Positions 17,013 through 62,229 of a stretch of DNA of 64,000 nt are shown here, one piece after another. Origin of the DNA: Leucosporidium creatinivorum (taxonomy: Eukaryota; Basidiomycota; Microbotryomycetes; Leucosporidiales; Leucosporidiaceae). The stretch spans positions 1-64,000 of the forward strand of contig BCKL01000038.1 of NCBI GenBank assembly GCA_001600635.1. The letters run 5' to 3'. Made by a program: the position numbers and the translations under genes. Under the pieces are notes generated by a model. It had not been told where the DNA came from. It saw only the letters and a list, made by a program, of their open reading frames with translations, and searched no databases. Position 1 is the first letter of the stretch, and every line of letters begins with the position of its first letter.

Positions 17013-20000
17013 TCACTCGTGGAGGGTCAAGACGGCCCTCTTCCTCGGCTTCTTGACCGGCTGCTCTCCCTCTGGCGCGCCCTCGCCCTCCCTCTTCTTG
17101 TTCGCCTCCCCAGCAGCAGCCGAAGTCGAAGCGGAAGGAGCGGAAGGAGTAGGCTCTGCCTTCTTGAAGAGGGCGGGCAGGGTCGCTGGTGCCGGAGCAG
17201 CAGCGACGGGTGCAGCGGTTTGGGGGAGTGAAGTGGTGAAGGGCGAGGGAGGGGGAGGGAGGTCCTTGAGCGCCGTCTTGTAGGGAGTGCCGAGCTCGAG
17301 GGGGTCGAAGGCGATGATGGAGCAGTAGCCGTCCTGCGCCGAGAGGATGAGGGTCTGGCCGTCGGGGGTCCTGGTAGTATAAACGAGAGTTAGCTAGCGT
17401 CAGAGAAACAGGGGAAGCCCCAACTCACCAGCTCAGATCGGTGAACGGAGCGTAGTGGAGGTTACCGAACATGGCGAGCGGCGCGGCTTGCTGAGTGTCG
17501 TAGAGGAAGACGGTGTCGAGAGTAGCGACGGCGTAGACCATGCGGTACGGGAGGTCGAACAAACTGGACGGCTTGACGTGGTCCTCCTCCTTGCCCTTGC
17601 CCTTCTCCTCCTCCCCACTCGGCAGCTTGACTTCCTTCCCCTCGCTCGTCAAATCGACCACAACCGGCTCCCTCTCGCTCTCCTCGCCCACTCCCTCACT
17701 CTTCAACATCCTCAAGTTCCAGAGCACGGGGCAGAACCTGATGGCGATGCTCGTCGTCTTGTGGCCCGGGAGATGAGCGACGGGAGGACGAGCGACGTTG
17801 GAGCGCGAGTAGATGTAGACCGTGGGCTTTCCTCCCGCCCTGGTGGAGAGTGCGTTGGACTCCTTGTCCTTGGTCGAAACGGGGGCGGGGCCCTTGCGCT
17901 TCTTGCTCGAGGTGGAAGCGTCCTTGTCCTCCTTCGTCGCCGCTGGCGGGATGTTGGCGTAGGGGTCCTCGAAGAGTCCCGCCGGCGTCAAGAGCAGGCT
18001 ACCATCGGTGCTCCAGCTCAGCCTACGGAAGAAGGGCGTCGAGTTGGCGTCGGTGTAGAGCTTGAGCGTCTCAACCTTGCCGCCTGGACCAGTCGAAGGC
18101 GCCATGGTGGGCGAGAGGGGGACCTTGACGGCGGGCAGAGGGGCGGGAGAAGGCGAGCGGAGGTGAGGAGGGTGGTGCTGAGGGGAGCGGGGGACGAGGG
18201 AAGGCGACTGGCCAGGGTGAGAGCCCGAGGTGGACGAACGGCGCGAGACAGGACGAGGAGCGGCGGGAGGGTCCATGGGAGTCGTCTCCTCGTCGATGAT
18301 GATGGCGTCGTCGCTGGCGGCCGTGGTCGAGTTGTCGCCTTGAGGAGGAGGGTGAGGGATGTGCGAGTGAGGGTGCGAGACGACGGAGGAGGTCTCGGAG
18401 ACGCCCGAGTCGCTCGCGCGAGAGTGGGAGCGTTGGTGCAGAAGAGGGCGAGCGAGAGACTTGTCCTTGTCGTCGGCCTTCTCGAAAGAGGACGAAGGGG
18501 TCTGAGCGGGAGTAGGTGGCCTCCAGGATCCTCCAGGCGTGTGCTGCACCTCCATGCGCGAGTTCTTGCCGACGGCGTGGACTTGAAGGCCACCGCTCGC
18601 CGTGTCGGCGATCGAGTAGATGTGCATCGACCTAATGAGAGATGCGACATCAGCGCCTGACGCGAAGTCGAATGGACGAGAGCCGAAGACTAACCGATCC
18701 GAGCTCTGCGTCGCGATGAAGCGGTTCCAAGGATCCCAGCTGACTCCTTGGACGTAGTTGGTGTGTTCGGCGATGGTGTGGATGAGCTGACCTGAGCCGA
18801 CGTCGTAGATGTTGGCCGTATGGTCGATCGAGCCGGTGAGGATGCGCTGGCCGTCGGGCGAGAAGCTGAGATCGTAAATCTCTTGACCCGTCTTGGTCCT
18901 GTGGGATAGGAGCGAAGAAGTCAGTCCCTCTATACTGCGAAGCTCTCGAAGGGCTCAAGTGCCGCTGCCCCTTCGACGCTGGACAGTTGGCGAGTCGAGT
19001 CTGCGAGCGACCTACCTGCACATCGTCTTGACCCTCCACTTCTCCCTCTCATACTGCAGATCCTCAACCGACTCTCCAAAGTTCGAGGTCGACTCGCCGG
19101 GAACCCAGAAGAGAACGTTGCCATCTGCCGAGTAAGGGAGCGGGGTCAGTGAGTAGTTCGAGAGGCTCCAGCATAGTCGAGCAAGGTACGTACCATCTCC
19201 AGCACTCGCGAGAAGATCGCCTGTGAACGCAGCCCGTCGTCAGCGACTCGAGCCGTCCGAACCTCGACGAGCGCCGAACTCACCGACTGGGGAGAACCTG
19301 ACGACGTTGACGATTCCAGTGTGCTGCTTGAGGGTAGCGAGGTACTCGACGGTCGGTCCTCCGCTGTCGGCTTGCTTGGCGGCAGAAGGAGGAGGAGGAG
19401 GAGGGAGCTTGGACGACGAGGCGAGGGGAGTGGGAGGGAGAGTGAGAGGCGCCGAGGAGGCCGAGGGGCGGGGGTGCACGAGCCAGAGCTATTGAGGGGC
19501 GAGGAACGTTAGCGTTGTTGAAGATAGCTTGCTCGACTGCAGACACTGCAGAGGCTGCGGCAGAGGACCTCCTTCAACTAGCGGCGCAAGCTCGGCGGGA
19601 CGACAACGAGGGCCATGATCCAGCATCGCCGCGCTACTCTGTAGCACAGTATGCGCCAGCTGTCAGGCCTCCGCGCCCTCCCGCTACGTCCGAACAGGCC
19701 TACGAGCCCATCACTCTGCGCGCCCCACCTTCTCGCCTCGCCGTCCTCACAGCCGCTCTGCACCTCACCAGACCAGCGCGTTCGATACCGAGGACTCACC
19801 CTGACGTTCTTATCCCCACCGCACGTTGCCAACCTCCACATCTTGTCCTCCTCTTCCTCTCCCGCCTTGCGCTGCTCGTCCTGGGCTACATCGACTCCTC
19901 CGGCCGTCTTGAGGTAAGGGTGAGCTGCTTTCTTGTGCTGCAGAGGAGGGGAAGCGTGGAAGTCGGTCGAGAAGATGGGCCTGTAGTTGAGCAGTGCAGG

Positions 20001-20588: not shown

Positions 20589-21649
20589 TCAAGCCCATCT
20601 CGCCCTCAGCTCCTCCTCCGACACGCCCGAGCGCCGAGCCTGCCTCGCCGTCAAGGAAGGAACATGCTGCAAGCTGTGCAGCTGCTGATCGGGCTGACGC
20701 CCGAGATGAGCCAGAAAGTCATCGAGACCGCGGTGGTCGCCCTCCGTATGGCGTAAATGTCCGCTGGTGATTGTCTGCGAGTGAAATAGTCAGTCTGACT
20801 CGGATTTCTCGGCGCTGGCAAGGAAAGAGACTGTGAGACGCCTCGAATCACCTTCCTGTACTCGCAAGCATAAAGCAAAAGCTGTGCAGAAGTATGTGGT
20901 CAGCTTAGTATCAGCAAAAATCGTCCAAAGGTCAAGGATCACCACGCCGCGAGTCCACGCCGAGCTCGTCTCCCAGTCCCGTAGGCCGACCCAAAGCAGA
21001 GGACGAAAAGCCTTACGCCCCTTGCCACCGTTCATCATCCATTCCTCCGCCGTCTCAATGTACTCGAGCATCATGTCAGCTGCGAAGGGTGAATCACGTT
21101 CGAAGTCAGCCAAAAGCTCGGCGATGTTGGACGAGCGTGAAGCGCCTCTTAGAAGGCGCACAAACCGTTGGGTCAAACATGAGCTGTTTGGAAGATGTAT
21201 TAGCGTGGCTATAGACCGGAGAAGCTGTAGAAGCATCATCTACTCACCCGCAGGAAGGGAATGTTGGCGTTGCCGTGAATGATGTCCTCTCGATGGCCGA
21301 ACGTCCTCAGGAAGTTAAAGTCGTCGTTTCTATTCTTGTGTGCAAATCCAGACTTCATGGGATGCTCTCCCCCTAGCGTGTGTTGCTTCCTCTGGTTGCG
21401 CCGGAGCGCCTGCTCGGTCCACTCGTTCGGCCCGGGCGAGTATTGGAACTCTACGTCGACGAGAGGCAGGATGGGATCGTGATTGGTGTCTGCTATGAAG
21501 CAGTGCACAACTTTGGTGCAGATGTTGATCATGTACCGCGCCATGCCCGTCGTGATGCGACGGTCTGCTCTCAACGGACGAACCGCTGTGAGCTCGTCGG
21601 CGGTGGTTGCGCCTGCCCATTGGTGGGCTTCCCCCGCAGAGATGGGCAT
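20589..21649 (-). CDS. Tandem paralogue A of an unrecognised two-gene family
   Basis: Five exons (21649-21248, 21183-21162, 21079-20943, 20881-20852, 20774-20589) give 258 residues. It starts MPISAGEAHQWAGATTADEL and contains TGMARYMINICTKVVHCFI, FLRTFGHREDIIHGNANIPF, FRPLLWVGLRDWETSSAWTR, LLLYACEYRK and a C-terminus SLTARQARRSGVSEEELR. The second exon is only 22 nt and reads LMFDPTV. The gene about 1.7 kb to the right has the same exon plan and the same sequence blocks, so the pair arose by tandem duplication. The sequence looks soluble and mostly helical, with no signal peptide, membrane segment or known catalytic motif. I do not recognise the family. Confidence 0.82.
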
Positions 21650-22360
21650 TTTGCGGTCGCTGAGGGAGGATTAAAAGATTGGAGAAGCGAATGGGAGAAG
21701 GAACAGACGCGCAAAGTCCAAGGACAGCTACACGGCGCCTGCCCTTCGCTCCGAGCTCGGCGGCTATGGGCTGAGCGGAGAACGCTGTGCTACAGCACAG
21801 GAGCCCCCGTTTAGCTATTCAGCTCTACTGCCGTCAAGGGCTGCTTTCCGAACAGCCGGGGCAATGTACGAGTCTCTACATACCTGCCACTCGGAAACGG
21901 CGCCGAAGGTGAGCGCCGAGCTCGTCGTGTCTCCGAAAGGCAAGCTCTAGGTCCTCCCTCTCATTGAGCGACCTTGCGCCCATCTCGCTCATCTTTTTCT
22001 CGTATCACCGACTCCAGCGTTCCGTCATCGACCGCCATGGCCCCCTCGCTCGCTCGCCCAATCACACTTTCTGAATCTCAGACTCGCTCGGCTCAGTTGC
22101 TGAGCCTGCAGCAGTGCAGCCAGCCATCAAGCTGCACCTCCCTCGCCTGCATCCGTTCAGTTCATCATATCTTTCCGACACCGGCTCAAAGAAGCAGGAG
22201 GCAGAGTAGCGAGCTAGCAGCGAGAGAAGGAGAAGCAGAGAGGGATTGGTCGACTCGCGAGGCCGGAACTTCTGCTCCTCTCGAGGATGATGCGACAGAC
22301 GGGACAGCACCCAGTCCATGTATCTGAAATTCGACAGTCATGCAGATCCCTTCACCTATT
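21650..22360. other. Intergenic region between the tandem paralogues
   Basis: About 710 nt holding the promoter of paralogue A and the 3' flank of paralogue B. A frame at 22062-22319 is not protein-like. No gene seen. Confidence 0.45.
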
Positions 22361-23403
22361 TCACGCCCACCTCCTCCTCAGCTCAGCCTCGGAAACCCCC
22401 GAGCGCCGAGCCTGCCTCGCCGTCAAGGAGGGCACATGAGCTAAGCTGTGGAGCTGTTGCTCCGGCTGCACCCCAAAGTCCAGAAGTAGTTCATTTAACC
22501 GCTTTTGCTGCTGCTCCAGGTGGCGCATGTGTCCCCCGTGGATCGTCTGCGGACGAGAGAGTCAACTGTGCTGCTCGGCGATGGCAAGAGAGCGGGAATT
22601 GAGAAGGGTGGGGCCCCCAATCACCTTCCGGTACTCCTGAGCGTAAAGCAGAAGCTGTTCAACAGCATTCAATCAGCCCAACAAAGTCTGAATCTTGCAG
22701 AGCTCCCGACTCACCACACCACGAGTCCAGGCCGAGCTCGCTTCCCAGTCTCTCACACCGACCCAGAGCAGAGGTCGGAAGCTCTTGCGCCCCGTTACGC
22801 CGCGCATCATCCATGTCTTTGCCGTCTGGATGTATTTGTGCATCATGGCGGCTGCGAGTTGGTGCGTAAATTGACCGTCAGCGAAAGGCTCGGCGATGGC
22901 AATCGAGCACGGCGCGCTTGGAAAAAGACGCACAAACCGTAGCGTCAAACATGAGCTGGCAAGTTGATAAAATCAGCCAGATTTCTAAGCGGAGGCAGGT
23001 AGAGAATACTCACTCGTAAGAAGGGAACAGTGTGGCTCCTCGGTGTAATCCCGTCTCGGTGGCCAAACGTCCGCAAGAAAGCAGGATCGTCCTTGCCATT
23101 CTGATTGGCCACATTACTCTTGGAAGCGAGCTCATTTCCCAGCGCCTCCAGCTTATTCTTGTTGCGGCTGAGGGTCTGCTGGCACCAATTCCACGGCGTG
23201 ACGGACTCGGCGGGAAGAGGTAGGATCGGCTCTTGCTCGCCCTCCTTGATGAGACAGTGCACAACCTTTGTGGACATTCCGACCATGTGTCGAACCATGC
23301 CGGTAGTGACGCGGCCGTCAGCTCGAGACGAGCGAATTTCCGTCAGCTCGTCGGCGGTGGTTGCTCCTGCCCATGCGGCGGCTTCTTCCTCAGAGATGGG
23401 CAT
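22361..23403 (-). CDS. Tandem paralogue B of an unrecognised two-gene family
   Basis: Starts MPISEEEAAAWAGATTADEL at 23403, chosen by alignment with paralogue A although the frame is open further upstream. It has the same five-exon plan: 23403-23014, a 22-nt exon 22955-22934 (LMFDATV), 22851-22715, a short LLLYAQEYRK exon and a last exon ending at 22361. Exon 3 is exactly 137 nt in both copies. Shared blocks are FLRTFGHRDGI, FRPLLWVGVRDWEASSAWTR and SLTARQARRSGVSEAELR. The middle of exon 1 is diverged (KEGEQEPILPLP against a different A segment), while the WVG-RDWE and C-terminal blocks are conserved, suggesting that both proteins are maintained. Function unknown. Confidence 0.82.
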
Positions 23404-23888
23404 GTTGAGGTACTCAAGAGATAGCTTGACAGGCGTAAAAGTGCAAGGGAGAAGGAGGAGCGATGCAAAGCTGCAGCACACCGCGGCGTCTGTCCTTCGC
23501 GCCGAGCTCGGCGGCTGTGAGCTGGGAGACGGGCTATAGACTGCAGTACAGTCTTTGCGTTGGGCATAGCGCCGATCTGAGCTGAATTAGTGCACAACAA
23601 TGAGTCGGGGCGGTGACTGAGGCCGTAGACGAGATTGAGGCGGCCTGCGAAGCTCCCTCACCGAGTGGATCGCCGAGAAGCTGGCTGCAGCCTTTTCAGA
23701 GCGTCCGACAGCCATGTAGTCTGCTCCAGGCGAGCCTTTGCTACACATTTCTCCCGTCTGCACCTTAGCGGCTTACACTTCTGCTCTTCTTGACCTTCTT
23801 GACCCGTTGAAAGGCGAGCGGAACAGCGTCGAGCCCTTTCGCGCTCTCGCTACACCTCACCTCGTCGGCACCTCGACTCCGAGCACCG
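23404..23888. promoter_or_regulatory. Divergent promoter region
   Basis: 485 nt between the starts of paralogue B (leftwards) and the zinc-ribbon gene (rightwards). No coding frame seen; no specific operator recognised. Confidence 0.45.
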
Positions 23889-33245: not shown

Positions 33246-34291
33246 GCTACTGCGAGGCTGCTGTGGCTTGGTAGGCTGCAGCGCAAAGGCGAGCTTGACG
33301 ACGAGCCTGAGGCGAGAGAGGTGCAGCAAAAGGAGGGTGGGCTCGACCGGCGAGCTGATACGATGTACAGCTGTCTTTGCAGCCACCTGGGCTGTGATTT
33401 GACAGGCGATAGAAGCGACCGAGACGAGGTACAGCGATGTGGTAGGAGGGTAACCTCCGAAAGCGAGCTGCCCGTTGCCTTGCCCTTCGGTCGTTCAGCT
33501 CTGCTCTTTCGTTGGCCTCGTCGACTCCCGGTATTGAGTAGTAGGGTCTCGGAAGTGGTTTGTCGTCCCACACGGAAGCAGGCAGCTTTTTCGCAGTCAG
33601 CTCAGCTGCTCGGTCGAGCTTGATTCTCTATCATCTCGCTCGCTAGTCGACTCTCGGTCGCCGGGTTCTCTGCACCGCTGCTTTGAGCTTGTATAATGCA
33701 CAAACGGCATCCTCTTCTATTCGACCTCTGCACCGCTGACGAGCAGGATTACTGTAGCTGTGCTTCCCTCGGCACTTCAGATTCGGCACTGCTCGGCGCC
33801 GAGTCTACGGAAGAGGAGCAGCTTCTGCCGCGGATCTGCATCGCTCGTGTGGAAGCCTTTCGACTGATCGCGCACCTCGAAGGACCAACGTCCGAGCAAT
33901 GTCCTTCGTGCAGAGCTCGACCGAGAGTGCGGTAAAGCTGCTGTCAACTCCACTGCTTAGTAAGCTTCCCAGCTCGTGGGTCTGCATATGGCATAAAAGC
34001 TACTAACAGCTATCATAGTACAGCAGAGGAATCGCCAGAACAGAGCAAACGAAGCGAAGGGAGACGAAGCGTTCGGCGTTCGGAGGGGGTGTAAGGTCAG
34101 TGCANCTACGGGCCGGGTCTCGGACCGTATCTGCGGGTGTGCACGGTCAGGTGAGATTGATAGATCAGGAGCAACTTCACGGGTGCCGAGATGGCCAGGA
34201 CAGACTCGGCGGAATCCGAACGGCGTTNGCCGTCCTAATTTTCGCTCAACTTGTTGCTTGTCTTCCTGCACCGTTCCAGCTCGCTCGACAG
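33246..34291. other. Divergent intergenic region
   Basis: About 1 kb between the membrane-protein gene (leftwards) and the Zn2Cys6 gene (rightwards). It has N at 34104 and 34227 and an AT-richer stretch near 33990-34020. No convincing gene. Confidence 0.45.
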
Positions 34292-35375
34292 ATGCCTCGA
34301 CTTACACCCAAGCTCGGCAAAGGGAGACAATTTAAGGGCGAAGTCATCTATCTCTCGTGTGAAGGTGTAAGTGCTTCCTTGTTCAGCTCTTGCCCGCTCG
34401 GCGGGAGGCTGACTTGCTTGCCTTTGCTCGTAATTCGTCTCCCACAGTGCAGGTGAGCTTTCGATGCTTACTTGGAGTCGTACACGATCCCACAGCTGAC
34501 CCTCGTATTCTCGCAGAGCTCGCAAGACCCGTTGCAGCCGGACCGAGGCTTGCGCCGAGTGTAGGGCTCGAGGCGAGAGATGCGTATGGGGTGGCAGTTC
34601 CAAGCCTTCGTAAGTTGCACGACACTGGAATGCTACTAGGAGGCGACCAGCTGACCAGCTCCTGCCCCGAACCAGGCGCACAATCGAGGAGGCCAACCTC
34701 GCCACCTCGGAGCACGAAGTCCTTCGACTGAACCGCATTGTCGGCAGACTCGAGGCGCACATCGCTATGCTCACCCAAGAGCTCATCAAGGAGCGCAAGG
34801 CGAGACGAGCGCTTGAGGAAGGCCCAAGAGTTGCCAACACGGACGAGGCAGGTCCTCTTCCTCCCACCGGCGCCGCTGCTTCCCCTCCGTCAGCGCCGCT
34901 CGACGACACTGGCGCATCAGTCAGCTCTTCCAGCTCAGATATGTCCTACTACAGTCACGAAGCATCGCCAGCACTACTACCAGCAGCAGATGCTTTCTCC
35001 TCCCTCCCCACGCCACCCTCAGCCTTCGCAGAACTCGCTCCCTTCGCCTTCCCAACTTTCCCCAATGTCGCTCCCGAGCCCACACCATACGCTACCTCCG
35101 CGCCATACATCCATCATCCTCCCCACCACCCTCCTCCCTCCTACTCCGACCGTCAACGCTACGCATCTGTCACCGCGCCTTCCCATCCACCTTCCGCCAT
35201 CGCCTACTCCTTCCCTCCGACCCCTCGAGATCACTACACGGCGGTACAAGCTCGGCCAAGCTTGGTGGTGGACACAGGCGTGTATCCAGCCCTCGAGCCC
35301 AACGTGCAGCACCAGGCGGCTTCGTGGTGGGATCTCGGCGCTGGCGAGGGAGGGGGCCGGGCGCAGGCGTCGTAG
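34292..35375 (+). CDS. Small Zn2Cys6 protein with a 5-nt microexon
   Basis: Exons 34292-34366, 34448-34452, 34517-34609 and 34676-35375. Joined, they read MPRLTPKLGKGRQF, then YLSCEGCRARKTRCSRTEAC, AECRARGERCVWGG, a perfect CX2CX6CX5CX2CX6C cluster. The second cluster Cys comes entirely from the 5-nt exon TGCAG, whose last two bases also begin the Arg codon; skipping it shifts the frame. A helix follows (EHEVLRLNRIVGRLEAHIAML), nearly the same as in the 30.7 kb gene, then a Ser/Pro/Tyr-rich tail of about 180 residues with no known domain. All splice sites are canonical (GTAAGT and CACAG; GTGAGC and TCGCAG). At about 290 residues it is much shorter than standard Zn2Cys6 activators. DNA binding is inferred from the cluster. 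Confidence 0.86.
34448..34452 (+). other. 5-nt coding microexon TGCAG (second zinc-binding Cys)
   Basis: Flanked by CCCACAG and GTGAGC, between introns of 81 and 64 nt. Inclusion gives CEGCRARK in frame; direct joining of the outer exons does not. It is among the smallest coding exons one could predict. Confidence 0.78.
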
Positions 35376-35596
35376 AGGCGAGGGTCGAGGCTGTGTCGAC
35401 TTGTTGCCTCGACAGAAGCAGAGTAATCTATCGCCCCTAGTAACTAGTCGTCACGGTTCATCCTTCGTCGACCACTGGGAAGCTCGCAAAGCGGTGGAGA
35501 GGAGAAAGAGCGAGATGCAAGACGACTGAGCGTATTCGATACAAGGCTACATCACACGGCTACAACAGCATCTCGAGATATATCAGAAGCGCAGGC

Positions 35597-38003
35597 TCAC
35601 ATCAGCCTACACTCTCCCGCTTCTCCCTCCGTCTCCTGGCCATCATCCTCGCCCTGCAGAGCGACTCGCACTTGACCTCGCATCTCGGTCGGGACCCTCG
35701 CCAGCAGCAGTGCCATCATCTGACGAGCCTGTAAGTATTCAGTGTCAGCGGCGAACTCCAGCACGAAGTAGAGCGAGTATGAACAACGCACCGACATGAT
35801 GTTGCCCGACTCTCGACCCTCCTGGCTTCGGTTGCGAGCGAGAATCTCGTCGGCTTCCTTGACGAGGTTGTTACGAAGAGCAGGGTCGGAAGTGGGTCCA
35901 AAGATCTTGACGGTAGGATCGATGCCCGAGATGGCCAGGAGAGGGAGACGAGGGTGAGGTTGGAGGACGTTGACGACTGTGAGAGAGAGAGGTGAGCTGG
36001 CGAGTTGACGCCCAAGATGAGCGACTCCAACTCACCACTACCATCGCCCTCGAAGATCCCTACCAGCTCCTCAGTCTCTTTGTCCCACACGAACCAATTG
36101 CCATCATCCGAGCCCGAGACGACAAACGAGTCGTTGCCGAAAGCAAAGTTGACGTCCTTGACGGTCGTCTCGTTGCGATGGCCAGTGTACTCGCGACGAG
36201 GCGCAATGAGCGGGACGTCCGAGTGGTAGGAGCGGAAGCGGTCGAGGCGGGAGAGGGCTTCCTCATCGTCCGAATCGTCGCCCGAGTCGGCGCCGATACG
36301 CTGCTCGCCTGCCTCCTCCTCCTCCTCGTCGACGGCGGCTTCCTCGAGATGCGGTCCAATCGAGGGAGATGATCCTCGGCGTGGACTGTCTTCCTCCCTC
36401 GGCCTCTTCCCGGGCACAGTCGAGCGCGACTCGTTGGACTCGCCATCGCTGCCCAGCAGAGCGTCGCCGCTCTCGGTCTCCTTTGCCGCGGGTGTAGATG
36501 GCTTAACGACGGGTTCGGGAGGGACATGAGGATCTGCATCCGTGTCGAAGAGGAAGACGCCTGCTCCCGAGTACGAGACGAGAAGGTCGCGAGGTTTGGC
36601 GCCGGAGAGCTTGGTCGCGACGACGTGGTTGGTGATCTACAGCTCGTGAAGAGTCAGCTTAAGCCTGAGTTTTAATGCAGAATAGCTCACCTCTCCTGCT
36701 CCCTCCTTCTTGGGCACGCCGAACCTGCGCACGCATTGAGTGAGATCCTTGTCGTTCGCCTCGACGCCCCAGTCTCGCTTCATCGGCTGTCGAAGCATGC
36801 GGCGGTCGTCTGCAGAGTGAGGGTCAGCTACCAGCCTCAGCGTGGTGAGGTATGAGCTTCAACTCACGAAGGAAGGCGTGAGGTGCAGTCCCGGCGACGA
36901 CGAAGAGGTGAGGCCGAAGCTTGGAGACGCTGAGCGAGTACAGGGAGAGGCCATCGTACTCGACGAGCGGTGGACCACACGCAGCTTCGTCACTTCGCAA
37001 CCCTGGTCGACGACAGGTGTGGGTCGTGCGCAGGTCGTGTTGCCTGTTGAGAGGGGAACGAAGAGATCAGCCTCGGCGACGAGAAGGCGAGTTTGGAGAC
37101 CATAGCGCACCTCACTGTCCCATCCTCGCTGCAGGTGAGAAAGACGTCGGGCGAGTTCTCCGTAGCTACTCGCTTGACTCGACTGGTATGGCAGCGGAGA
37201 ACTCGAGTGCACGCCGTAGCAGCTTCATGATGAGTCCAAGGTGGGTGCGCCGAGTCCGACGAGGATTGAAAGACAGTGGACGAGCTGAGAGCAGGGTTAC
37301 TGACGAGAGAGAGATCGTAGACGCGGACCTGTGGTATGTGGCGGTCAGCGAGAAGCCTGCACGCAGAGAGCTGTGAAACGTACGGTCGAATCGCCGGCGC
37401 AGGAGAAGAGACGAGTCGGGCTGTAGGGGGCCCACTTGACGCTGAAGATGTTGGCGCGGTGTCCTATAGACAGAGAATCAGCTCTGATGTAGCACGTCTA
37501 CCTGCTGAAGCGCACCCGTGTCGATGACCTCGGTCAAGCCGAGACGAAGCGAAGGAGCGGTCGCCGAGTCATTGCTGGTGAACGAGTCGACCCCTGGCTT
37601 CCAGATGCAGATTCTGCAGGTCGGTAAAGATGGTTAGCCAGGCTTTACTATGCTTCCCTCGGCTCTACTAGCTCCATCGCTCGTAGCGACCACAGCGTTC
37701 GGCAGCTGCATCTGAAGCTCACTTGGTATCGTCTCCCGCACTCGCCAGCCTTCCTTCACCTCCCATCTCCCAATCCAGAGCGTTGACACAGCCTGTACTG
37801 CCCCAAGCCTCGCGAGCGACTCGATGGCCGCTGGTCGTCGGATGCGGGTCGCCTAGAGTAGCGAGCAGAGACAGGCGAGGGGGCCAGGAAGGTGCAGCGA
37901 GTATATTGTTGTACAGCTGCTTCACCGGGCGATTCGGCGGAGCCAGCGAGAGCGACGGCAACTCGAGGAAGCTGTTGCTGTTGGGTTCGAGTGGAGCCCA
38001 CAT
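35597..38003 (-). CDS. DCAF-like WD40 protein, left copy (candidate CUL4-DDB1 substrate receptor)
   Basis: The start MWAPLEPNSNSFLELPSL (38003) is followed by WD blades GCVNALDWEMGGEGRLASAG, HRANIFSVKWAPYSPTRLFS, SPDVFLTCSEDGTVR joined to QHDLR, SYSGAGVFLFD, VKDVNFAFGNDSFVVSGSDD joined to GNWFVWD, and VVNVLQPHPRLPLLAISGID. The ...DGTVRxHDLR blade is the WDXR-type motif that docks DCAFs to DDB1; the layout resembles DCAF6/DCAF8/WDTC1. An acidic insert with a basic motif (PGKRPREED) separates the last blades. The C-terminus ends ECRLM at 35597. Ten or so short introns. Most of the gene (to 36363) is repeated in inverted orientation at 62.2-64 kb. E3 ligase adaptor function is inferred from the family. 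Confidence 0.82.
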
Positions 38004-38135
38004 CGTTGGAAGCTGTAGTCGAGTGTTGTAGGAGCGACGAGGGAGAGCAGCGAATGACTTCTGTAGCTGAACAGGTCCTGCTGGGCAACCGCCCTTTATG
38101 CTAAGTGAGCGCCGAGATGAGCGAAGGAGAGCAAG
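36363..38135 (-). repeat. Left arm of a long inverted repeat
   Basis: About 1.77 kb of this strand, reverse-complemented, aligns end to end with 62230-64000, introns included. In a roughly 600-nt stretch read side by side I saw about 18 differences, or about 97% identity. The outer breakpoint is at 38135; the inner limit is set only by the window end. Confidence 0.88.
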
Positions 38136-38506
38136 GGGCGGCGAGGCGCTGAGCTCTTCTCCTTCGACATCGCAGAGCTCCCGACAGGCTCAAGCTGGCT
38201 TGGTGCCGCTCGAAGCGACTCTCGTGCGGTTTCTTCGGCTGGCCGGCTAGACAGCAGGGGAATTGCTTCTCCCGCCTGCTGGAGCTCCCTTCATCTCATC
38301 GGCGCCGAGCAGCTGAGCTCGTACTTTGACCGCAGCCGTCTCTACACAGCTTCTCGAAGTGCCCCAACAATATACAGAGTCACCTCTGCTGCAGCTCGTT
38401 CTTGCTGCCGACATGGTCCGTCCGGACGAGGCTCCTGCAGCCATCTCTTAGTAGCCGACGCTGAGCCTCTTTCGCTTTTGCTCTTTCTCTTGCTCGCCGT
38501 TCGACG
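38004..38506. promoter_or_regulatory. Divergent promoter region (DCAF-like / GH71)
   Basis: 503 nt between the two starts. The first 130 nt next to the DCAF-like gene (to 38135) are part of the inverted repeat, so both copies keep only a short shared upstream region. No operator recognised. Confidence 0.45.
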
Positions 38507-41434
38507 ATGACCTCGTACAAGCAGGCCCAGCGAGACGACACCGACTCGGTGAGCGATGCTGGCTCGTACAGCAGCAGCGACAACGATTCGGCGCCTCCTC
38601 GGACGCCTGCTCGACGACGACCATCGATTCTCTGGCTCGTTGTGGGCCTTCCAGTCTTGTTAATCGTCACAACAGGTGCTGTCTGGGGCAGTCGTTACTA
38701 CGCCAACAAGTCGGCATCAACTTCGGCGCCCGATAATGTCTCGCCAGCTCTCCACTCAGCCGAGCCTTCGCATGCACCTATGAGCGCAGATACTGCTCAC
38801 AGATCCGGCGCATCCATCGCTAATTCTACTGGTGGAAAAGTCGGAGGACCCCCGCTACCGTCAGCGGCCAAGACAGGCGCGACATCGACTGCAGCTGCTC
38901 CGGCTTCGGCGAAGAGCAATTCTCGAAAAGGTGAGCGATTTGTACAGTTTCGGCCTCAGACCTTTGGTAAACTTGACTGAGACGTCGTCCTTCCAGTCTT
39001 CGCTCATGTGCTACAAGGCCTCTCGCAAGACACGACCGCCGAGGAGTGGGCGAGCGACATCGCCCTCGCAAAAGCGGCCGGTATTGATGGATTGTAGGCC
39101 GTTACCTCTTCACCGGGCACCACGACGAGTAAGCTGACCTACTGGTATCGCAGTGCAATAAACGTGAGCCGTCTCGGTTCACTTCTCGCTCGCCTAGCTC
39201 ACTCCTTCGCAGGTGGGGCACGACGAGACGGACAAAGTCCAGATGCCGCTCGTGTTCAAGATCGCTGCTGAAGCTGGCGACTTCGTCCTCTTCTTCTCAT
39301 TCGACTGCAGTAAGCTTCGTGCATTTGTAATCCGAGCAAGAGCTCACCTTCTCCTCTCAGACCACTTCAACGCCAAGGGCTCTTCGGAAATCATCCTCAA
39401 CGAGTATCTCGTCCCTTACGCTCTCAACGACATCTACTACAAGGTCAATGGAGCATCTCTTGTGAGCACCTTTGCCGGTGACAACACTGCTACCTACCTA
39501 GACGGCAACCCGGACATCTCAAAGAGTGAGGAGTGCAGCGAGCGATGCGCCGAACATCGCTGACAAGCTCTGTTGCAGCATGGTCCTCTCTTATCTCCTC
39601 GGCAAAATCAAAATCTCCTTCTATCTCTGTCTACTTCGTACCATGCCCGCTCGGCGATAGTGTAAGTGTTCAGCATCTGCCCCTCGAGCTCGGCGATAGC
39701 GGCTGATCTTGTCGGGAGCCAGAACACCATCCTCGACCTATACGACGGTGTCATGAGATGGTTCGCATGGCCATTCGATAACTCGGCACCCTCCATCGAC
39801 ACCGATGAGGCCTTCATTAAAGCGACTCGGGCGAAAAACCAAACGTATATGGCTCCAATTGGCGCCTTCTTCTACGCCCACTACAACGCCGAAACTAATT
39901 ACATCTTTGTGAGTTCCGGCTTTGGCTTGAGCGGGGTCGTGTAGGCTGATCTGAAGCTTACTTTAAATCTCGGCGTTCGCAGAAATCGGACAACTGGCTC
40001 TTGCCGACTCACTATGAGCAAGTGATCAAGATGAAGACGCAGCCTGATTGGATTGAGGTGAGCTCAAAAGACTTTCGAGCTTTACAACTGCTGACTAACT
40101 CGCCTACAGCTCCTCACTTGGAACGACTACAGCGAATGTGAGTCGCCTGCTCTCAAAGCCTTCCTGTTGCTCAAGCTGACCCCGGGATCTTGCACAGCTC
40201 ACTACCTCGGTCCCCTGCACAAGACCTCCATCTTACCCGGCACAAACCGACTCTACGTGCGTTTCCAGCGGAGCTCGGGCGACCCGACCGAACTCACCTC
40301 GCTCTCCCCACAGGTCAACTCGACCTTCGACCACACGCCCATGCTCACTCTCAGCAGCTACTACAATCGCTGGTACAAAACAGGGAGTGCTCCCTCTATT
40401 GCTACGTAAGCCTTCTTCTCGCGCTGAGCCGAACTGGCCCTCGCTGACTTGCCTCGCTGCGTAGAGAGACAATCATCTGGTGGTGAGGAGCGACGGTAAC
40501 TGGGGAGTCTTGCAAGGACTTACCATTCATCTGCGTAGGTACCGACCTCACCCATCGGCAGCTACAGCTTCGAAGGACACGCTCGACCGACCGCGCGATG
40601 TCGAATGGCTGGAGGACAAGTGAGCGGAACGGAGCGTCCTTGCGCGATCTGCCAGCTTACCCTCACAATATAACAGCCTTTATGCCGCTGTCCTGATCCC
40701 CGAAGGCTCGTCAGCGGCCTCCCTCGTCTTCAGCACGGGTGCGAAGGCGCAGAAGGGCCAGCCCGTCTCGGCGGGCGTCAATCTCGTCAAGGCGGCCTTT
40801 TCTGCAGGCTCCCAGTCAATAGTGAGTCGCGAGGAGATGCTACAGACTGGTCTGGAGGCCTCGCTGAACCCGCTATCTGGCTGCAGACCCTTCTCGACGG
40901 CTCGGGCAAGTCAGTCTTGTCGGGCAACGGATGGCCCATCACCGATTCGCCAGAGACCTACAACTACGTGGGTGGTCCCAGGGTGCTTTTTTATTGCTGT
41001 AGCTAACCTTGCACCTCCATCAGAACTATTGGTGCGGGATCTTGCCCGCCGACGCTTCGCCTTCGTGGGTGTCCCTTCCCCTGGCCTCGCTCCTCTCATC
41101 GTCGCTGATCTCGTACAGCTTACAGAACCATGTTGGGCAGCTGAGTGTAGCCGCCTACCCGGATCCCCTCCTACCAACGTGCAGTGTGTCTGTCAGCGCC
41201 CTTCTCCTGCTCGGCGCTCGTTCGGCGAGCTCGTTCTCAGCGCTCTCGCTCGGGCTTGCTGTCTGTCGACTGTACATTGTCAGGCTCACACGATTGTTGC
41301 GAGATATGGAAGCGAGGGACGCACCTGCTCGATCTCGAGAGCGTGCTGCTTCTTCGATCCGGTGGCGACGGAGGCGACGGGCTCACGTCCAGCAACGTAG
41401 ACTACAATTGTACATGATCAGCGTCGCTCTGTAG
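38507..41434 (+). CDS. Membrane-anchored glycoside hydrolase family 71 (alpha-1,3-glucanase)
   Basis: Starts MTSYKQAQRDDTDSVSDAG, a Ser/Asp-rich cytosolic segment, followed by one membrane helix (LWLVVGLPVLLIVTTGAVWG, about residues 44-63) and a Ser/Thr/Ala stalk. The GH71 domain opens VFAHVLQGLSQDTTAEEWAS and continues AKAAGIDGFAINVG, VLFFSFDC, RWFAWPFDN and TWNDYSESHYLGP. Family members cut alpha-1,3-glucan, so this is probably a type II membrane enzyme acting on cell-wall glucan. About ten short introns. After NYWCGILPADASPSW the tail runs through LSVAAYP ... LAVCRLYIVRLTRLL. It then passes the site where the duplicated copy has a TGA and continues about 44 residues antisense to a KGD1 fragment before stopping at 41434. 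Confidence 0.85.
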
Positions 41435-41513
41435 CTGTTCAAAGGCGAAAGACCTACTGCGCTTGCTCGCGTGGAGCTGAGCTTTCCGCATGGCAGTCTC
41501 AAGGCGGCTTAGC
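41050..41513. repeat. Tandem duplication, copy 1 (GH71 3' end plus KGD1 3' piece)
   Basis: 41050-41305 matches 41527-41779 (GH71 tail, roughly 80-85% by eye). 41312-41513 matches 41955-42155 (KGD1 penultimate exons and introns, almost identical at first). Copy 1 lacks the roughly 180 nt that hold the last KGD1 exon. Confidence 0.85.
41312..41513 (-). pseudogene. KGD1 3' fragment
   Basis: A displaced copy of the KGD1 exon encoding [18 protein letters not shown], plus the neighbouring intron and part of the upstream exon. It is cut off from the gene, lacks the terminal exon and is overlapped in antisense by the extended GH71 frame. Confidence 0.8.
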
Positions 41514-41526
41514 TGCTGGCCTCGGC

Positions 41527-41772
41527 CGACTCACTCGCCTTCTCGGGTCTCTCGCCTTGCTCATCGCTTCGTCGCTGATCTCGTACATCTGCAAGAACCA
41601 TGTTGGGAAGCTGAGTGTAGTTACATACCCGTCCCTGCGCCTAACAACGTGCAATGTGTCTGTCAGCACCCTTCGCCCGCTCGGCGCTCGTTCGGCGAGC
41701 TCGTTTTTGGCGCTGTCTCTCGGGCTCGCTGTCTCTCGACTGCACACCATCAAGCTCACACGGCTGATGTGA
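41527..41772 (+). pseudogene. GH71 3' fragment retaining the ancestral-looking stop
   Basis: It reads LISYICKNHVGKLSVVTYP and LGARSASSFLALSLGLAVSR and ends IKLTRLM followed by TGA at 41770-41772. This is the diverged partner of the GH71 tail in copy 1. It has no upstream exons of its own. Confidence 0.8.
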
Positions 41773-42155
41773 GATATGTAGGCGAGTCAGAGAGAAAAGG
41801 TTACAAAAGTGGCCTCAAAGGTGCTAGAGATTCGATCAGTGAGCTCGCTGACCTCCATGGGACTGTGCATGCTTCTCCAAATCGAAGGCCTGCGACAAAA
41901 ACTGTGGTTCGCTGTAGGTTAGCACCTTGCTACTCGTAGGGAAGAAGGAGAGCGAAGGGACGAACCTGCTCGATCTCGAGAGCGTGCTGCTTCTTCGATC
42001 CGGTGGCGACGGAGGCCACGGGCTCACGTCCAGCAACGTAGACTACAATTGTACATGGTCAGCGTCGCTCTGTAGCTGTTCAAAGGCGAAAGACCTACTG
42101 CGCTTGCTCGCGTGGTGCTGAGTTTCCCGCATTGCGGTTTCGATACGAGGCTGAA
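41527..42155. repeat. Tandem duplication, copy 2
   Basis: Second unit of the convergent-junction duplication. Its left part is a GH71 tail remnant and its right part holds the working 3' end of KGD1, including the terminal exon at 41836-41890. Confidence 0.85.
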
Positions 42156-45100
42156 GGTAGGTCCAGCTCCCGCCGTTTACGGGCTCTTCTTGAACGTGGT
42201 ACATGACTGCATGACGATAAGCAGGAGAGTAGAATCAGCAGGTGTCGCCTGTAAAAATGACGAAAACGACTGCTCGCCTGCAGAAAGGAGAGAGAGGCAA
42301 CTCACCAGCGTTGGGGTAGCGATCGAGATGGGGGGTGATCAGGTCGTAAGGCAGGGGGGAGAGCTGCTCAATACGTGAGATGGCCACAACACTCTGCAGG
42401 CCACGCTTCTCCCTCTCAGCGAGAAGGGTGTAGTAGACCTGACCCGAGCAGAGCTGTGGCGCAGGGAAAAGGTCAGCTTCTCGGCGCTCGGCGAAGATGA
42501 AGCGAAAGGACGCACGATATGGCGCTTGACGTCCTCGGGGGCACCGAAGCCTTCAGGTTCGGGCTCGGGGATGTAGCGCTGGAAGTGGGTATCGGGGGCG
42601 AACTCCTCAATCGAGGAGCGAGCCTGAGGGTGACGGAGGAGGTTCTTGGAGAAGAAGACGATGAGGGGCTTGCGGAAGTCGCGGTGGATCTGGCGACGGA
42701 GGGCGTGGCTGTAGAGAGATAAGCAGATTAGCAACAGGACCAGGGGCGAAGAGTAGCTGAGCGAGCGCACAAGATGTTGGACTGCGAAAGCGAGGAAAGT
42801 CAGTCGAAGGCTTCTCGACCAAGAAGGCTCAACAAACGTACAGGAATGGTTGGGTAGATGAGCTGCATGTTGCAATCCTGGTGTTGACGAGCGAGCTTCT
42901 CGGCGGTAGGGTAGAAGAAGGGGTGGTCGTCGCAGAGCTGGAGGAAACGCTCGATACGAGCCGACGAGTGCTCGGGTCCTTGTCCGTCGTATCCGTGAGG
43001 AAGCGACATGACGAGTCCAGAGCGCTGGAGCCACTTCTTCTCTCCCGAGGCGATGAACTGCGAGTGGAGAGGGCATTAGCGAAGGTGAGGCGAAGAAGCG
43101 TTGCGCTCGGCGAGAGGAGCGCACCTGATCAATCATGATCTGGCAACCGTTGGCAAAGTCACCGACTGTACGAGATGGAAACGAAGTCAGCTACAGACCA
43201 AGACTGCGACAGCGATTCGAAACGTACACTGAGCCTCCCAGATGACGAGGAGAGCGGGGTCGACCAGCGAGTATCCCAACTCGAAGCCGAGGACTCCAAA
43301 CTCGGAGAGGGAAGAGTTGCAGACGGTGACGGAAGCCTGATCCTCAGCGAGGTGCTTGAGGGGCATATACAGCTCGTCGTTGTTCTGGTCGTGGAGCACA
43401 GCGTGGCGCTGGGAGAAGGTTCCACGCTCGACATCCTGTCCCGAGACACGGACGTGGTTCTTCTCGAGCGCGAGGGTTCCGAAGGCGAGCGCCTCGGCGG
43501 TCGAGTAGTCGATGCCCTTGCCCTCGGCGACTGACTTGCCACGGGCCTTGAGGATACGCTGGAGGTTGCGGTGGACCTCGAAGCCTTCGGGGTAGGAGGA
43601 GATGACGTCTCCGACCTTCTTAAGGGTGTCGAGCTCGACTCCAGTGGGGCGCGACTCGAGGATCTGCTCCTTGAGCTCGCGAGGGCTGGGGAATCCATCC
43701 CACGACGACGAGAGCCACTCCTTGGAGGTAGGCTTGTACTCCTTTGACGCCTCGAACGACTTCTCGAGAAGGCCCCAGACCCAGCTCTTGTGCTTCTCGG
43801 TCTCCTCGTTGGTGAAGGACTCCTCGGCGACGAGCGATTTGGTGTAGACGTCGAGGGTGGTGGGCTGGTTCTTGATGACCTCGTACATCTTGGGCTGAGT
43901 GAACGAGGGCTGATCTCCCTCATTATGACCGTGACGACGGTAGCAGATGAGGTCGATAACGACGTCCTTTTGGAACTTGGCACGCCAGTCGGCGGCGAGC
44001 TGGCAGACGAAGGTGACGGCCTCGGCGTCGTCTCCGTTAACGTGGAAGATGGGGGCGTCGATGGCCTTGGCGATATCGGAGGGGTAAGGGGTCGAGCGAC
44101 CCTGGGCGGGGTTGGTGGTGAATCCGATCTGGTTGTTGACGATGAGGTGGATCGTGCCTCCCGTGCCGTAGTTGGGGAGATCGTGGAAGCCCATGGTCTC
44201 GTAGACGATACCCTGGCCGGCGAAGGCGGCGTCTCCGTGGAGGAGGAGACCCATGGCCGTCTTCTTGTCGGCGTTGCCCTCGAAGTGCTGGATGCCCTTG
44301 GTCTTGCCGAGCACGACACCATCCTCAGCCTCGAGATGGGAGGGGTTGGCGACGAGGGAGAGGGCGACACGCTTGCCGGAGGGAGTAGGGCGAACGTAGT
44401 TGGCGCCGAGATGGTACTTGACGTCGGCGGCAGCCTCCTCGTCGGGGTTGGTGGAGGGGGCGAACTCGGCGAGAATGGCCTCGGTGGGCTTGCGAATGAC
44501 GTTGGCGAGGACGTTAAGGCGACCACGGTGAGGCATTCCGATGACGACGGATCCGACTCCGAGCTCGACGGAGCGGTCGATGAGGGCCTTCATACCGGGG
44601 ATGAGAGTCTCGGCTCCCTCGAGTCCGAAGCGCTTCTCGTTGGGGTACTTGGAGGCAATGAAGCGCTCGAACGAGTCGGACCAGATGAGGCGGTCGAGGA
44701 TGGCGCGCTTCTCGTCGGTGGTGTACTTCCATGGCTCGGGGATCTCGACGCGCTCGCGGATCCAGTCGCACTCGTCGCGGTTGGGAATGTGGATGTACTG
44801 GATGCCGATGGAGCCGGCTGCGCGAGGGAAATCAAGTCAGCTCATGTAACCTTTGTCGGCAGTGATTTCGACACTCACAGTAGATCTTCTTGCACGACTC
44901 GATGATCTTGCGAAGGGTCATCTTCTGCTGACCGGCCTCCTTGAAGCGAGGGAGGATACCGGCACCGAGCTCGAACTCCTTGTCGAGGTCCTTCTCGGTC
45001 CAGCCGTAGTTCTCGATCGTGAGCTCGGGAGGCATGGTCGAGTCGAGGTCGGGCTGGTTGATACCGAGAGGGTCGAGGTTGGCGATGTGGTGTCCACGGA

Positions 45101-49435: not shown

Positions 49436-52400
49436 CTACATGAGCCTGTAGAGCGACGGAGGTCAGCATCTGCATCCCCTTGCGAGGACCGACTACTCAC
49501 CAAGCCCAGAACTTCTGCACGGCGTTCTTCGGCTTCTTGTCGCGGGGGTCCACCTCCTCCTCCACGCGCGAGCCGGTTTGCAGGTCGGCGACAGAGAGAT
49601 CGACGACCTCGCTCTTTCCGATGATCCTGAAGCCGAAGTAGAGGACGGGGAAGAAGACGATGGGGAAGTAGCTGTAGAGGGCAAACAAGCGCCGAGCATC
49701 CGCCGAAGATCAGTTTTCGTTGCATTTCTCAAGCGCTGGGGACCCTCAGGGTGCTCAAAACCTCCGCAGATACTCCATAAGTAATCGCCGAGTTGCAAAA
49801 AATGACTCACGATGTGACGAAGGTCGCCTTGTCGAACACCCAGTCGGGATCGCTCTTGATGAACACCGCGAAGCCGTTGAAGATGACTGCAGAAGGCGAA
49901 GTGTGTCAGAATTTGCCCTAGAAGAAGGGAAATGAAACGCACGAATGATGATGCAGAACACGAGTCCGTAATAGGCCAAGAAAGGCTGCAGAGGGGCTCG
50001 GAAAGGGAGGGTTCGGCGATCCAGCCCTTGAAGCCTCATTGCCTTGTGGAAGCGGATGTAGGTGAAGCAGATGGCAGCCCAGGTGATCAGTCCGCAGACC
50101 GACGTCATGTTGGCGCTGTAGGAATGCCGGAGAAAGGTCAGCGTTCGTCTCTCGGCGATGAGCTCGGAGTTCGCTGCATCGAAGCCTAGGTAACGAGAGC
50201 CGCCAGCAGTACTCACAAGTAGCCGAAGACCTTGCCAGCTGAGGTAGATCCGACCGACATGTAGGAGAGTAGTCCGAAAGCGGAACCGATTGCCACGCAC
50301 ACGTAGGGGAGGCCCCACGAGTTGACCTTGCGAAGGACCTTGGGGGCGTTGCCGTTCAGAGCGAGTCCGTATCTATGATTGGATACAGCGTAAGTACAAA
50401 ACGTCACCGTTCAATCTGAGCGAAACGTACAGCGCTCGACTGCCGGTGTCTATCGATGGAAACGGTCAGGTCTCTGCCTGGCGCCGAGGAGACGGAGGCG
50501 AACTCACAAAGATCCGAGGATCCAGCCGACCAGGCCGAGCTGAGTAGCGCTGCGTTGATGACTAGAGATGGTTAAGTGTCAGCAAAGCTCGTCCTGCAAC
50601 GTCTAATACCCTTCAGCGACGAGCAAGTCAGCGCCGAACTCACTTGACGGGAGGGCAGGGATACCGGCGTTCTGAATGGCGATAACGAAGGGCGAGGAGG
50701 CGGCGTCTCCAGATGAGAGGTTCAGGCGCGGATCGTTTGAAGCGACCAAGAGACCGATGACGAACTGCAGAAGGGCGCGAGAAAGCAAGGGCCGCAGGGT
50801 TAGCCTTGCTCGTGGGCTACGGAGAAGGGGGGTCCCCCTACAGTTCCGAGGAAATAGAAGACTATGATACGGAAGACCCTGAATGGGTGTAGAGTGCGAG
50901 GGACGTCAGTATGGGGACTCAGAGGAGGTGAGCCCGGCATCGTCGCCGATGCTCGGCGTCGCCGGACAGGAGGCTTCGGCTTCGAGGAGAGAAGGACTCG
51001 GAACGTACACCCTCTTGATAGCTTTAGGAAGGTTCCTCTTCGGATCTTTCGCCTCTCCAGCAGCGATGGCGACGATCTGTAGCGAGCAGCAATAGCGAAG
51101 TCAGCTTCGGCGCTTTCCTCTCGGCGGACACTCCTCGGCGCAGACTCACCTCAGTTCCGATGTAGGAGAAAGCTGCTTGAATGAGCACAGCCCAGAAACC
51201 GAGGAAGCGACCTGTAGGAGAGCAGTGTTGGTCAGTAAGGTAGTAAACCGCAAGCGCCCGCTCGGCGACCACGAGATGATGTCGAACCAGGCGAAGGCCT
51301 CCGACCCTCGAAACCTCAGCTCCGGCTCAAACTCACCGAGAGATCCAGGAACACCCTTGTACTGCACGAAGGGGCCGGGGTTGTGCCAGTAGCGGAAGCC
51401 GATGCGAGATCCGTCGGCGTTCTTCTTCGTGTCGAGGATGATGCCGAGGAGGATGAGGCCGATGATGGTGATGACCTTGATGATGGCGAACCAGAACTCG
51501 CACTCGCCTGTGAGGTGTAGCAAGTTAGAGAAGAAGCGACAGCGCGGGGCCTCGCGAGAAGCGACAGCGCAGGAAGACCGAGCTGCTCGGAGGAGGACGT
51601 CGAACTCACCGTACACCTTGGTTCCACCGACATTGATAGCGATAGCAACAACGAGGCACACTGTGATCCATACACCAGGGTTGACGTCCGACCAGTAGCC
51701 GATGAGAACAGCAGCGGCGTTCATTTCGGCGGGAAGGACGACTCTGCGAGAGTGCGAACGTTTGCGTGAGCTCTAGGTCTCCTGCAGGCTCTCAAGACCT
51801 CACTTACGTCCAGTTGTACCAGTATAGCCAGCCCATGCTGTCGTACGTCAAGAAGGAGTCGTCTCAGTCGATGTTCGGCGCGGCGCTCGGCGAGGACCAA
51901 AAGCTGAAGCCTGCTCCGGCTCGAGCCGACTTACGCGAAGGAGAAGGCCGGGTCAACAAAGCGGTGACCAAGAGTAATGTGTCCACCAGGGACGGGGAGA
52001 TGGGCAATCATCTAGGAAGAGAGAAAAGTAGCGAGTCAAGTCAGCCCAGCTCGCCGTTTCCGGAGGCGTTGCTGCACCAGAAGCGTTGCTGTACAGAGCT
52101 ACTCACCTCTCCAAGGCTGACCATCATACTGTAACACACCGAACCGAGGACTACGAAGCCCATAAACAGGCCGAGGGGTCCTCCATTGCGGACTACAAGG
52201 ATAAGTCGATTAGCGCAGTGTAAGGGTGCAGCGATAAACAGTCAAATTACGAGCTCCGGCTGATCCAAGAAAGAGGCCGGTACCAATGACTCCTCCCTGC
52301 GAAAGCCGAACAAAAGTCAGCTCGTGATCTCGGCGCCGATCTGTTGCAGCAAATACCCACGATTGAGATCATTTGAACATGACGAGACTTGAGCCTGTAG

Positions 52401-52618
52401 GTCGACAAACAGATCCAACAAGTCAGCTATCGTCCTGCACCCCGTCCCCCGATGAAAAGATTCCCCCTTCCCCCGCCTGGAGCTCACTGTCGCTGGAGCG
52501 GGGCATTGCCTCCAAGGTCGGTCGAGGGCTCAACAGCTGCGAAAGTGGTGGGTCCTCCCTTCTCCGATTTGTTCTCCTCCATGGCTTGCGAGTGGAAGTG
52601 CTGCTCCTGAATCGACAT
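49436..52618 (-). CDS. Amino-acid permease (yeast AAP/YAT family, APC superfamily)
   Basis: Starts MSIQEQHFHSQAMEENKSEK, a charged cytosolic tail. An early exon reads LKSRHVQMISIVG joined to GVIGTGLFLGSAGAL, the signature first helix of yeast amino-acid transporters. Later helices include SMMVSLGEMIAHLPV, FSYIGTEIVAIAAGEAKDP (the consensus amphipathic loop), FYFLGTFVIGLLVASNDP, SAWSAGSSDLYTGSRALYGL and GLITWAAICFTYIRFHKAMR. The protein ends KKPKNAVQKFWAWLM. About 12 membrane helices are expected at the plasma membrane, importing amino acids with protons. More than fifteen short introns. The terminal join to a WLM exon (stop 49438-49436) is optional, since the previous exon also meets a TGA. 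Substrate range cannot be told from sequence. Confidence 0.92.
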
Positions 52619-61515: not shown

Positions 61516-62229
61516 CCTGAACAAACGAGTGAGGAGTAAGAAGGAAAGAGGGAAAGAGAAGTCCAGCACCCTAGAAGTTCTGTGGAACCGTTCGGAGGCC
61601 ACCTCGGCGGGCGGCTCGCGAGTCGTTATCAGACTCCGATGCCAAGGCGAGCACGAGCCAAGCTAGTGTTGTACGTGATCGCAGCGGGAAGTGCTTCAGG
61701 TGACCTGCTGTAAGAATGTGCAGCCGAGCCAAAGAAGGGCCAAAGATGGCTTCAAGGGGTCCAGCCACCATCGCCGAGCCTTGCTCTCGAGACCTGAGGT
61801 GCAGGCTGAGCTCTACAGACAAAGGAGGAGTATTGCGATAGGCGAGAAACTGGAGAATGTGACCCTTATCGGCGAGGAAAGTCTCAACCGCTCCAAGCGC
61901 GAAGCTCGGCCGATCGTGCTCAGCACCTTCTTACCCAGCTGCAGAGCCGACGGCAGTCTGCTGGTTATTCCACTCGCTCGATAACGAATGTGGACTGGTG
62001 TGCGGACGCGCAGCTGCTTGCATGGACGACCCGATGCCCTGCAGAACTGAGGCGACTCGCGACGAGCGAGCGTGATTCGAGCGCGACTGACTCCGTTGGG
62101 CTTGCTGCAGGACGAGGGAGGTCGGCTGTAGGCGAGCAGGGCAGCACAAGATCAAGAGCAGCACAGAAGCAGCTGAAGCCTGTCATGGGCTCCGGGAAGT
62201 CGAAGGAGAAGGAGCAGCGGAGGCGGCCT
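61516..62229. promoter_or_regulatory. Divergent intergenic region up to the inverted repeat
   Basis: 714 nt between the asparaginase start and the edge of the right inverted-repeat arm. A frame open from 61990 runs into the DCAF-like copy, but the left copy has nothing equivalent, so it is taken as chance. Confidence 0.45.

Follow-up and report, generated by a model that had tools for sequence, protein, structure and literature searches.

The closest described counterpart of the locus reported here is Xlr2 of Trichoderma virens, in which a 20-nt microexon within the zinc cluster encodes the stretch PCRRCE, with two cysteines, and is used in a glucose-dependent manner (PMC11121469). That microexon is backed by RNA-seq and RT-PCR and is missing from the JGI gene model; in the available text of the same report no reads join exons 1 and 3, and in T. 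reesei Xlr2 the retention of intron 1 varies with the sugar source (PMC11121469). Very short coding exons have also been described from other fungal genes. In the bglA genes of basidiomycetous yeasts, comparison with cDNA gave minimal exons of 5 bp in Sirobasidium magnum and 6 bp in Rhodotorula minuta (PMC9142197), the RNA-seq-revised annotation of Cryptococcus neoformans var. grubii contains exons down to 1 bp (PMC3990503), and in P450 genes of Phanerochaete exons can be as short as 6 bp (PMC1184071). Our search of the open-licence PMC literature found no report of the gene described below or of a five-base exon in a zinc cluster.

The gene lies on the + strand of the window, i.e., the whole stretch of 64,000 nt of Leucosporidium creatinivorum DNA that was analysed. 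Intron density, the branch-point-like CTGAC motifs and the gene content of the window point to a basidiomycete; ARAGORN and Rfam (gathering threshold) gave nothing of use for taxonomic placement. The predicted spliced frame of the gene joins 34292-34366, the five bases TGCAG (34448-34452), 34517-34609 and 34676-35375 into a CDS of 873 nt that encodes 290 amino acids and ends with a stop codon at 35373-35375. The initial annotation had set TGCAG apart by canonical splice sites, and its coordinates are exact, base for base, against the window sequence, with GT-AG introns on both sides. The features of the gene are as follows.

34292..34366, + strand: exon 1, 75 nt, from the start codon to just past Cys23 (the first zinc ligand), ending in phase 0
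34367..34447, + strand: intron 1, 81 nt, with a GTAAGT donor, a branch-point-like CTGAC at 34409-34413 and a CCCACAG acceptor
34448..34452, + strand: the microexon TGCAG, made up of TGC for Cys26 (the second zinc ligand) and the two leading bases of the Arg27 codon
34453..34516, + strand: intron 2, 64 nt, with a GTGAGC donor, CTGAC at 34496-34500 and a CTCGCAG acceptor
34517..34609, + strand: exon 3, 93 nt, with Cys33, 39, 42 and 49, the other four zinc ligands
34610..34675, + strand: intron 3, 66 nt, with a GTAAGT donor, CTGAC at 34651-34655 and an ACCAG acceptor
34676..35375, + strand: exon 4, with a leucine-rich segment, a Pro/Ser-rich low-complexity tail and the stop codon

Exon 1 closes on Ser-Cys-Glu-Gly (TGT GAA GGT for the last three residues) directly before GTAAGT; TGCAG stands between CTCCCACAG and GTGAGC; and exon 3, which starts at 34517 after TTCTCGCAG, completes the Arg27 codon with its third base and continues with Ala-Arg-Lys-Thr-Arg-Cys. 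The spliced translation reads MPRLTPKLGKGRQFKGEVIYLSCEGCRARKTRCSRTEACAECRARGERCVW... and places cysteines at residues 23, 26, 33, 39, 42 and 49, giving CX2CX6CX5CX2CX6C. TGCAG supplies one of these ligands, as had been proposed, and its omission does shift the frame, which then stops after 40 aa. The cluster can also be lost with the frame kept, in two ways that the initial annotation does not mention. Intron 1 has a length that is a multiple of three and contains no in-frame stop, and its retention gives a protein of 317 aa with 27 additional residues between the first two cysteines, whereas use of an acceptor at 34538 removes seven residues in frame, including the usual context of the third cysteine. 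The GTGAGC donor directly follows CAG, so that 34453 is itself a possible acceptor (score 4.3), the use of which would create an AG|GT zero-length exon of the kind seen in recursive splicing. The window holds twelve N bases, ten of them within 266-838 and two (34105 and 34228) upstream of this gene, both less than 190 nt from its start codon.

That a perfect cluster arises only when TGCAG is included, another element of the initial annotation, is borne out by enumeration. With the start fixed at 34292, the end of exon 3 fixed at 34609 and 0, 1 or 2 GT-AG introns of 35-260 nt allowed, 1670 stop-free splice structures exist in this region, and a Zn2Cys6-type motif occurs in a single one, that which includes TGCAG. 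To gauge chance, the outer splice sites were kept fixed and the intervening 138 nt were shuffled 20,000 times with dinucleotide composition preserved. Some AG-N5-GT was present in 4008 of the shuffled sequences and one that completed the cluster in 113; an N5 of any kind with splice sites at least as strong as the weakest flanking ones was present in three, and one that in addition completed the cluster in two.

The splice sites of the microexon were compared with a yardstick of 62 introns, all from other genes of the window that scored at least 25 in a simple home-made gene model trained on the window, which was run with a stricter intron score at three penalties. In score, the acceptor of the microexon equals or exceeds 82% of the yardstick introns, a level reached by 0.24% of the AG dinucleotides of the window, and its donor equals or exceeds 52%, a level reached by 1.24% of the GT dinucleotides; each is the best of its kind within 34281-34700. 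The outer sites are ordinary and fall in the lower third of the yardstick (donor 34367 at 32%, acceptor 34517 at 26%), and the flanking introns, at 81 and 64 nt, compare with a yardstick median of 66.5. CTGAC is present in all three introns of the gene. Acceptor choice generally follows the rule that the first AG after the branch point is taken, and in introns 1 and 2 the AG used is the first after CTGAC. As a possible origin of the arrangement, we considered intron gain, with TGCAG and the CGCAG that closes intron 2 as target-site-like repeats. Four of the five bases match, but the splice consensus dictates three of them, and the match was not accepted as evidence.

Scored as whole-gene parses, inclusion of TGCAG reached -16.0, retention of intron 1 -25.8 and skipping -84.6, which places inclusion ahead by 9.8 and 68.6 natural-log units, respectively. 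All parse scores for this gene are negative, and its codon signal is therefore weak; run unconstrained on 34201-35400, the model limited its call to 34767-35375, inside exon 4. Exon 4 nevertheless distinguishes the frames clearly: its coding score is +9.1 when read as after inclusion, and -25.6 and -59.3 in the other two frames, the last being the skip frame. For exon 3 taken by itself, the skip frame comes out slightly ahead (-7.5, against -9.9 for the inclusion frame). Between the two acceptors for the end of intron 2, the model slightly favours 34538 (-13.6) over 34517, with TGCAG included in both cases, and it is the zinc motif alone that decides for 34517 in the predicted structure.

Zn2Cys6 proteins follow the consensus spacing CX2CX6CX5-12CX2CX6-8C, and the cysteines at residues 23-49 fall within it. 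With TGCAG included, the Pfam Zn_clus family (PF00172) is matched at 22.9 bits by residues 1-140 and at 21.3 bits by the full-length protein, the latter only 0.3 bits over the cutoff of 21. Retention of intron 1 (19.9 bits) and exon 3 alone (19.5 bits) remain below this cutoff, and the Pfam scan did not report Zn_clus for the product of skipping or for that of acceptor 34538, so that among the readings scanned inclusion alone reaches it. A phmmer search against solved structures retrieved LAC9 (E = 0.0025) and three GAL4 chains (E = 0.019-0.062). These scores are modest, yet they point to the right family. The domain resembles the Zn2Cys6 domains of GAL4 and LAC9 (PDB 1cld, 3coq, 1d66) in its six-cysteine cluster and in the basic residues between the second and third cysteines; unlike these, it has a Cys3-Cys4 loop of five residues, one fewer than in the aligned Gal4 and LAC9 chains. 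A leucine-rich segment is seen by eye at about residues 72-105, where the sole Pfam match lies far below cutoff, and the fungal-specific transcription factor domain PF04082 is absent from the full 290-aa protein in a Pfam scan with E up to 1. On sequence grounds we predict a short Gal4-type Zn2Cys6 regulator, the regulatory role being the one expected of its family. Pattern searches with the 290-aa protein gave 3 matches in a collection of viral contigs and 46 in one of prokaryote contigs, and the 66-aa zinc-cluster segment gave 233 in the prokaryote collection, none of which was confirmed. The lack of a relative in these collections is expected for a fungal gene and says little about fungi.

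Set beside the described systems, the locus shares with Xlr2 a frame-shifting microexon within a Zn2Cys6 cluster that supplies zinc-ligand cysteine and is flanked by canonical introns, and just as the Xlr2 microexon is absent from the JGI model, the TGCAG exon goes uncalled by our simple gene model (PMC11121469). The two differ in that Xlr2 is an ascomycete protein of 895 aa with a 20-nt exon carrying two cysteines, whereas here 5 nt carry one cysteine in a protein of 290 aa; Xlr2 moreover has both Zn_clus and PF04082 (PMC11121469), of which the protein described here shows only the first, and by this mark it does not qualify as an Xlr2 orthologue. The bglA genes are alike in having very short coding exons between short introns and unlike in encoding a glycosidase, for which the available text proposes no switch (PMC9142197). 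Cryptococcus neoformans var. grubii likewise has an intron-dense genome with tiny exons, though the statement is a genome-wide one that, in the text available, names no zinc-cluster case (PMC3990503).

The initial annotation called coding exons this short rare and hard to splice; that such an exon is exceptional for this organism is not supported, given published yeast exons of 5 and 6 bp (PMC9142197) and the contents of the window itself. Defining a microexon as a coding exon of 30 nt or less, we found an 11-nt exon encoding Ser-Asn-Ile-Phe in the gene of 2-oxoglutarate dehydrogenase (OGDH), a core TCA-cycle enzyme (42771-42781, - strand), in a region that aligns without gaps to solved OGDH structures; when this exon is skipped the frame shifts and the Pfam match breaks off. 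Two exons of an amino-acid permease gene (49436-52618), 19 and 30 nt long, lie within the domain match of that gene, both in ungapped parts of the alignment to lysine permease, and exons within domain matches are also found in a GH71 (alpha-1,3-glucanase-like) gene, where 28 nt (40110-40137, + strand) encode the LLTWNDYSE stretch, and in a CAF1B/HIR1-like WD40 gene (27 nt). In a looser gene set, 5 of 7 internal exons of at most 30 nt fall inside domain matches; 19648-19659, which is outside the domain match of its gene, and 6148-6172 were left out. A five-base exon is thus probably not strange in this genome. Counted over the window, AG-N(1-15)-GT with a donor score of at least 5.24 and an acceptor score of at least 4.96 occurs three times on the + strand against a mean of 0.5 in 10 shuffles, and not at all on the - strand against 0.9; at cut-offs near the scores of the TGCAG exon itself (6.1 and 7.5) the counts are two against 0.0 and zero against 0.0, respectively. 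The excess is absent on one strand, and the case for small exons in the genome therefore rests on the domain matches and not on this count.

Several further observations concern other parts of the window. The second five-base AG-N-GT match on the + strand, 40133-40137, is nested within the 28-nt GH71 exon, where another strong acceptor, with the exon starting at 40133, would leave an exon of 5 nt. The 3' end of the OGDH gene and the sequence beyond it carry tandem partial repeats (41081-41316 with 41551-41786, and 41311-41500 with 41951-42141; 82% and 95% identity, respectively). Two tandem segments of 1.2 kb (20589-21773 and 22361-23524, 67% identical) each contain, on the - strand, 30 nt of similar sequence flanked by good splice sites (20852-20881 and 22625-22654). 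A 1.85-kb segment (36363-38211) that includes part of a WD40 gene next to the zinc-cluster gene recurs inverted at 62156-64000 with 96% identity, running off the end of the window. This inverted repeat may be either a duplication or an assembly artefact, and the zinc-cluster gene, too, may have a second copy shortly past position 64000.

In our assessment, TGCAG is very probably a coding exon, and most likely a constitutive one, between two closely spaced introns of a predicted short Zn2Cys6 regulator gene. Its anatomy, its uniqueness among the enumerated structures, the strength of its splice sites and the other small exons of the window are observed; constitutive splicing, the order of intron removal and the role of the protein as a DNA-binding regulator are what we infer beside them. 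Short introns are recognized as units (i.e., intron definition), so the length of an exon between two of them matters little, and five bases cannot hold both splicing complexes at once. The introns of 81 and 64 nt, which lie five bases apart within the codons of the zinc cluster, would each be recognized across the intron and would presumably be removed one after the other, given that both complexes cannot occupy the exon together. TGCAG would then be joined as an ordinary constitutive exon, supplying Cys26 and restoring the frame. Constitutive inclusion is the most economical interpretation, as the microexon has good splice sites of its own and another gene of the window, for a housekeeping enzyme, depends on an exon of similar type.

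The initial annotation had suggested instead that inclusion or skipping of the exon acts as a switch, in which condition-dependent splicing would turn DNA binding on and off, as claimed for Trichoderma Xlr2. We consider this very unlikely. The precedent of Xlr2, with its glucose-dependent 20-nt microexon in the Zn2Cys6 cluster (PMC11121469), speaks for it, as does the consequence of skipping; the resulting 40-aa stub is, however, an off state and not an alternative protein, both sites of the exon are at or above the yardstick median, and the frame-shifting 11-nt exon of OGDH argues that tiny exons need not be switches. Even in Xlr2, where the available text reports exon 1-exon 3 reads to be absent, direct skipping is unproven (PMC11121469), and the proposal is unsupported at this locus. 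An isoform retaining intron 1 is also distinctly improbable, though if splicing is regulated at all it is the more plausible form. The 317-aa protein, with its 27 residues between Cys1 and Cys2, would presumably be a competitor dead for DNA binding, a possibility consistent with the open frame through the 81-nt intron and with the sugar-dependent retention of intron 1 reported in T. reesei Xlr2 (PMC11121469). A length that is a multiple of three and free of stops is, however, shared by 5 of the 62 yardstick introns, so that chance suffices and this property is not evidence of regulation; read as coding in frame, moreover, intron 1 scores -10.5, and it carries CTGAC and a strong acceptor.

More broadly, regulated splicing might set the DNA-binding protein against an in-frame competitor with a broken cluster, through retention of intron 1 or acceptor 34538, a scheme that we regard as a long shot; any regulated form of splicing here has about one chance in seven. 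Were it true, a regulated TGCAG exon would be the smallest exon controlling a zinc cluster among the cases compared here. It is more doubtful still that there is no microexon, which would mean a degenerate gene or a zinc cluster that GC-rich sequence yields by chance. The weak codon signal, the Pfam score at its cutoff, the lack of relatives in the viral and prokaryote collections and the two N bases shortly upstream of the start codon are compatible with this view, which is opposed by the rarity of an equal result among the shuffles (2 of 20,000), by six cysteines in canonical spacing and by the weak matches to LAC9 and GAL4 among solved structures.

Taken as a constitutive exon, TGCAG by itself reveals no new mechanism, and its importance lies in gene prediction, as five bases determine whether a DNA-binding domain appears in the gene model. 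Automatic annotation that overlooks exons of this size would leave regulators without their zinc clusters and enzymes such as OGDH with broken frames, and can thereby falsify tallies of transcription factors in fungi as well as presumed losses of such factors.
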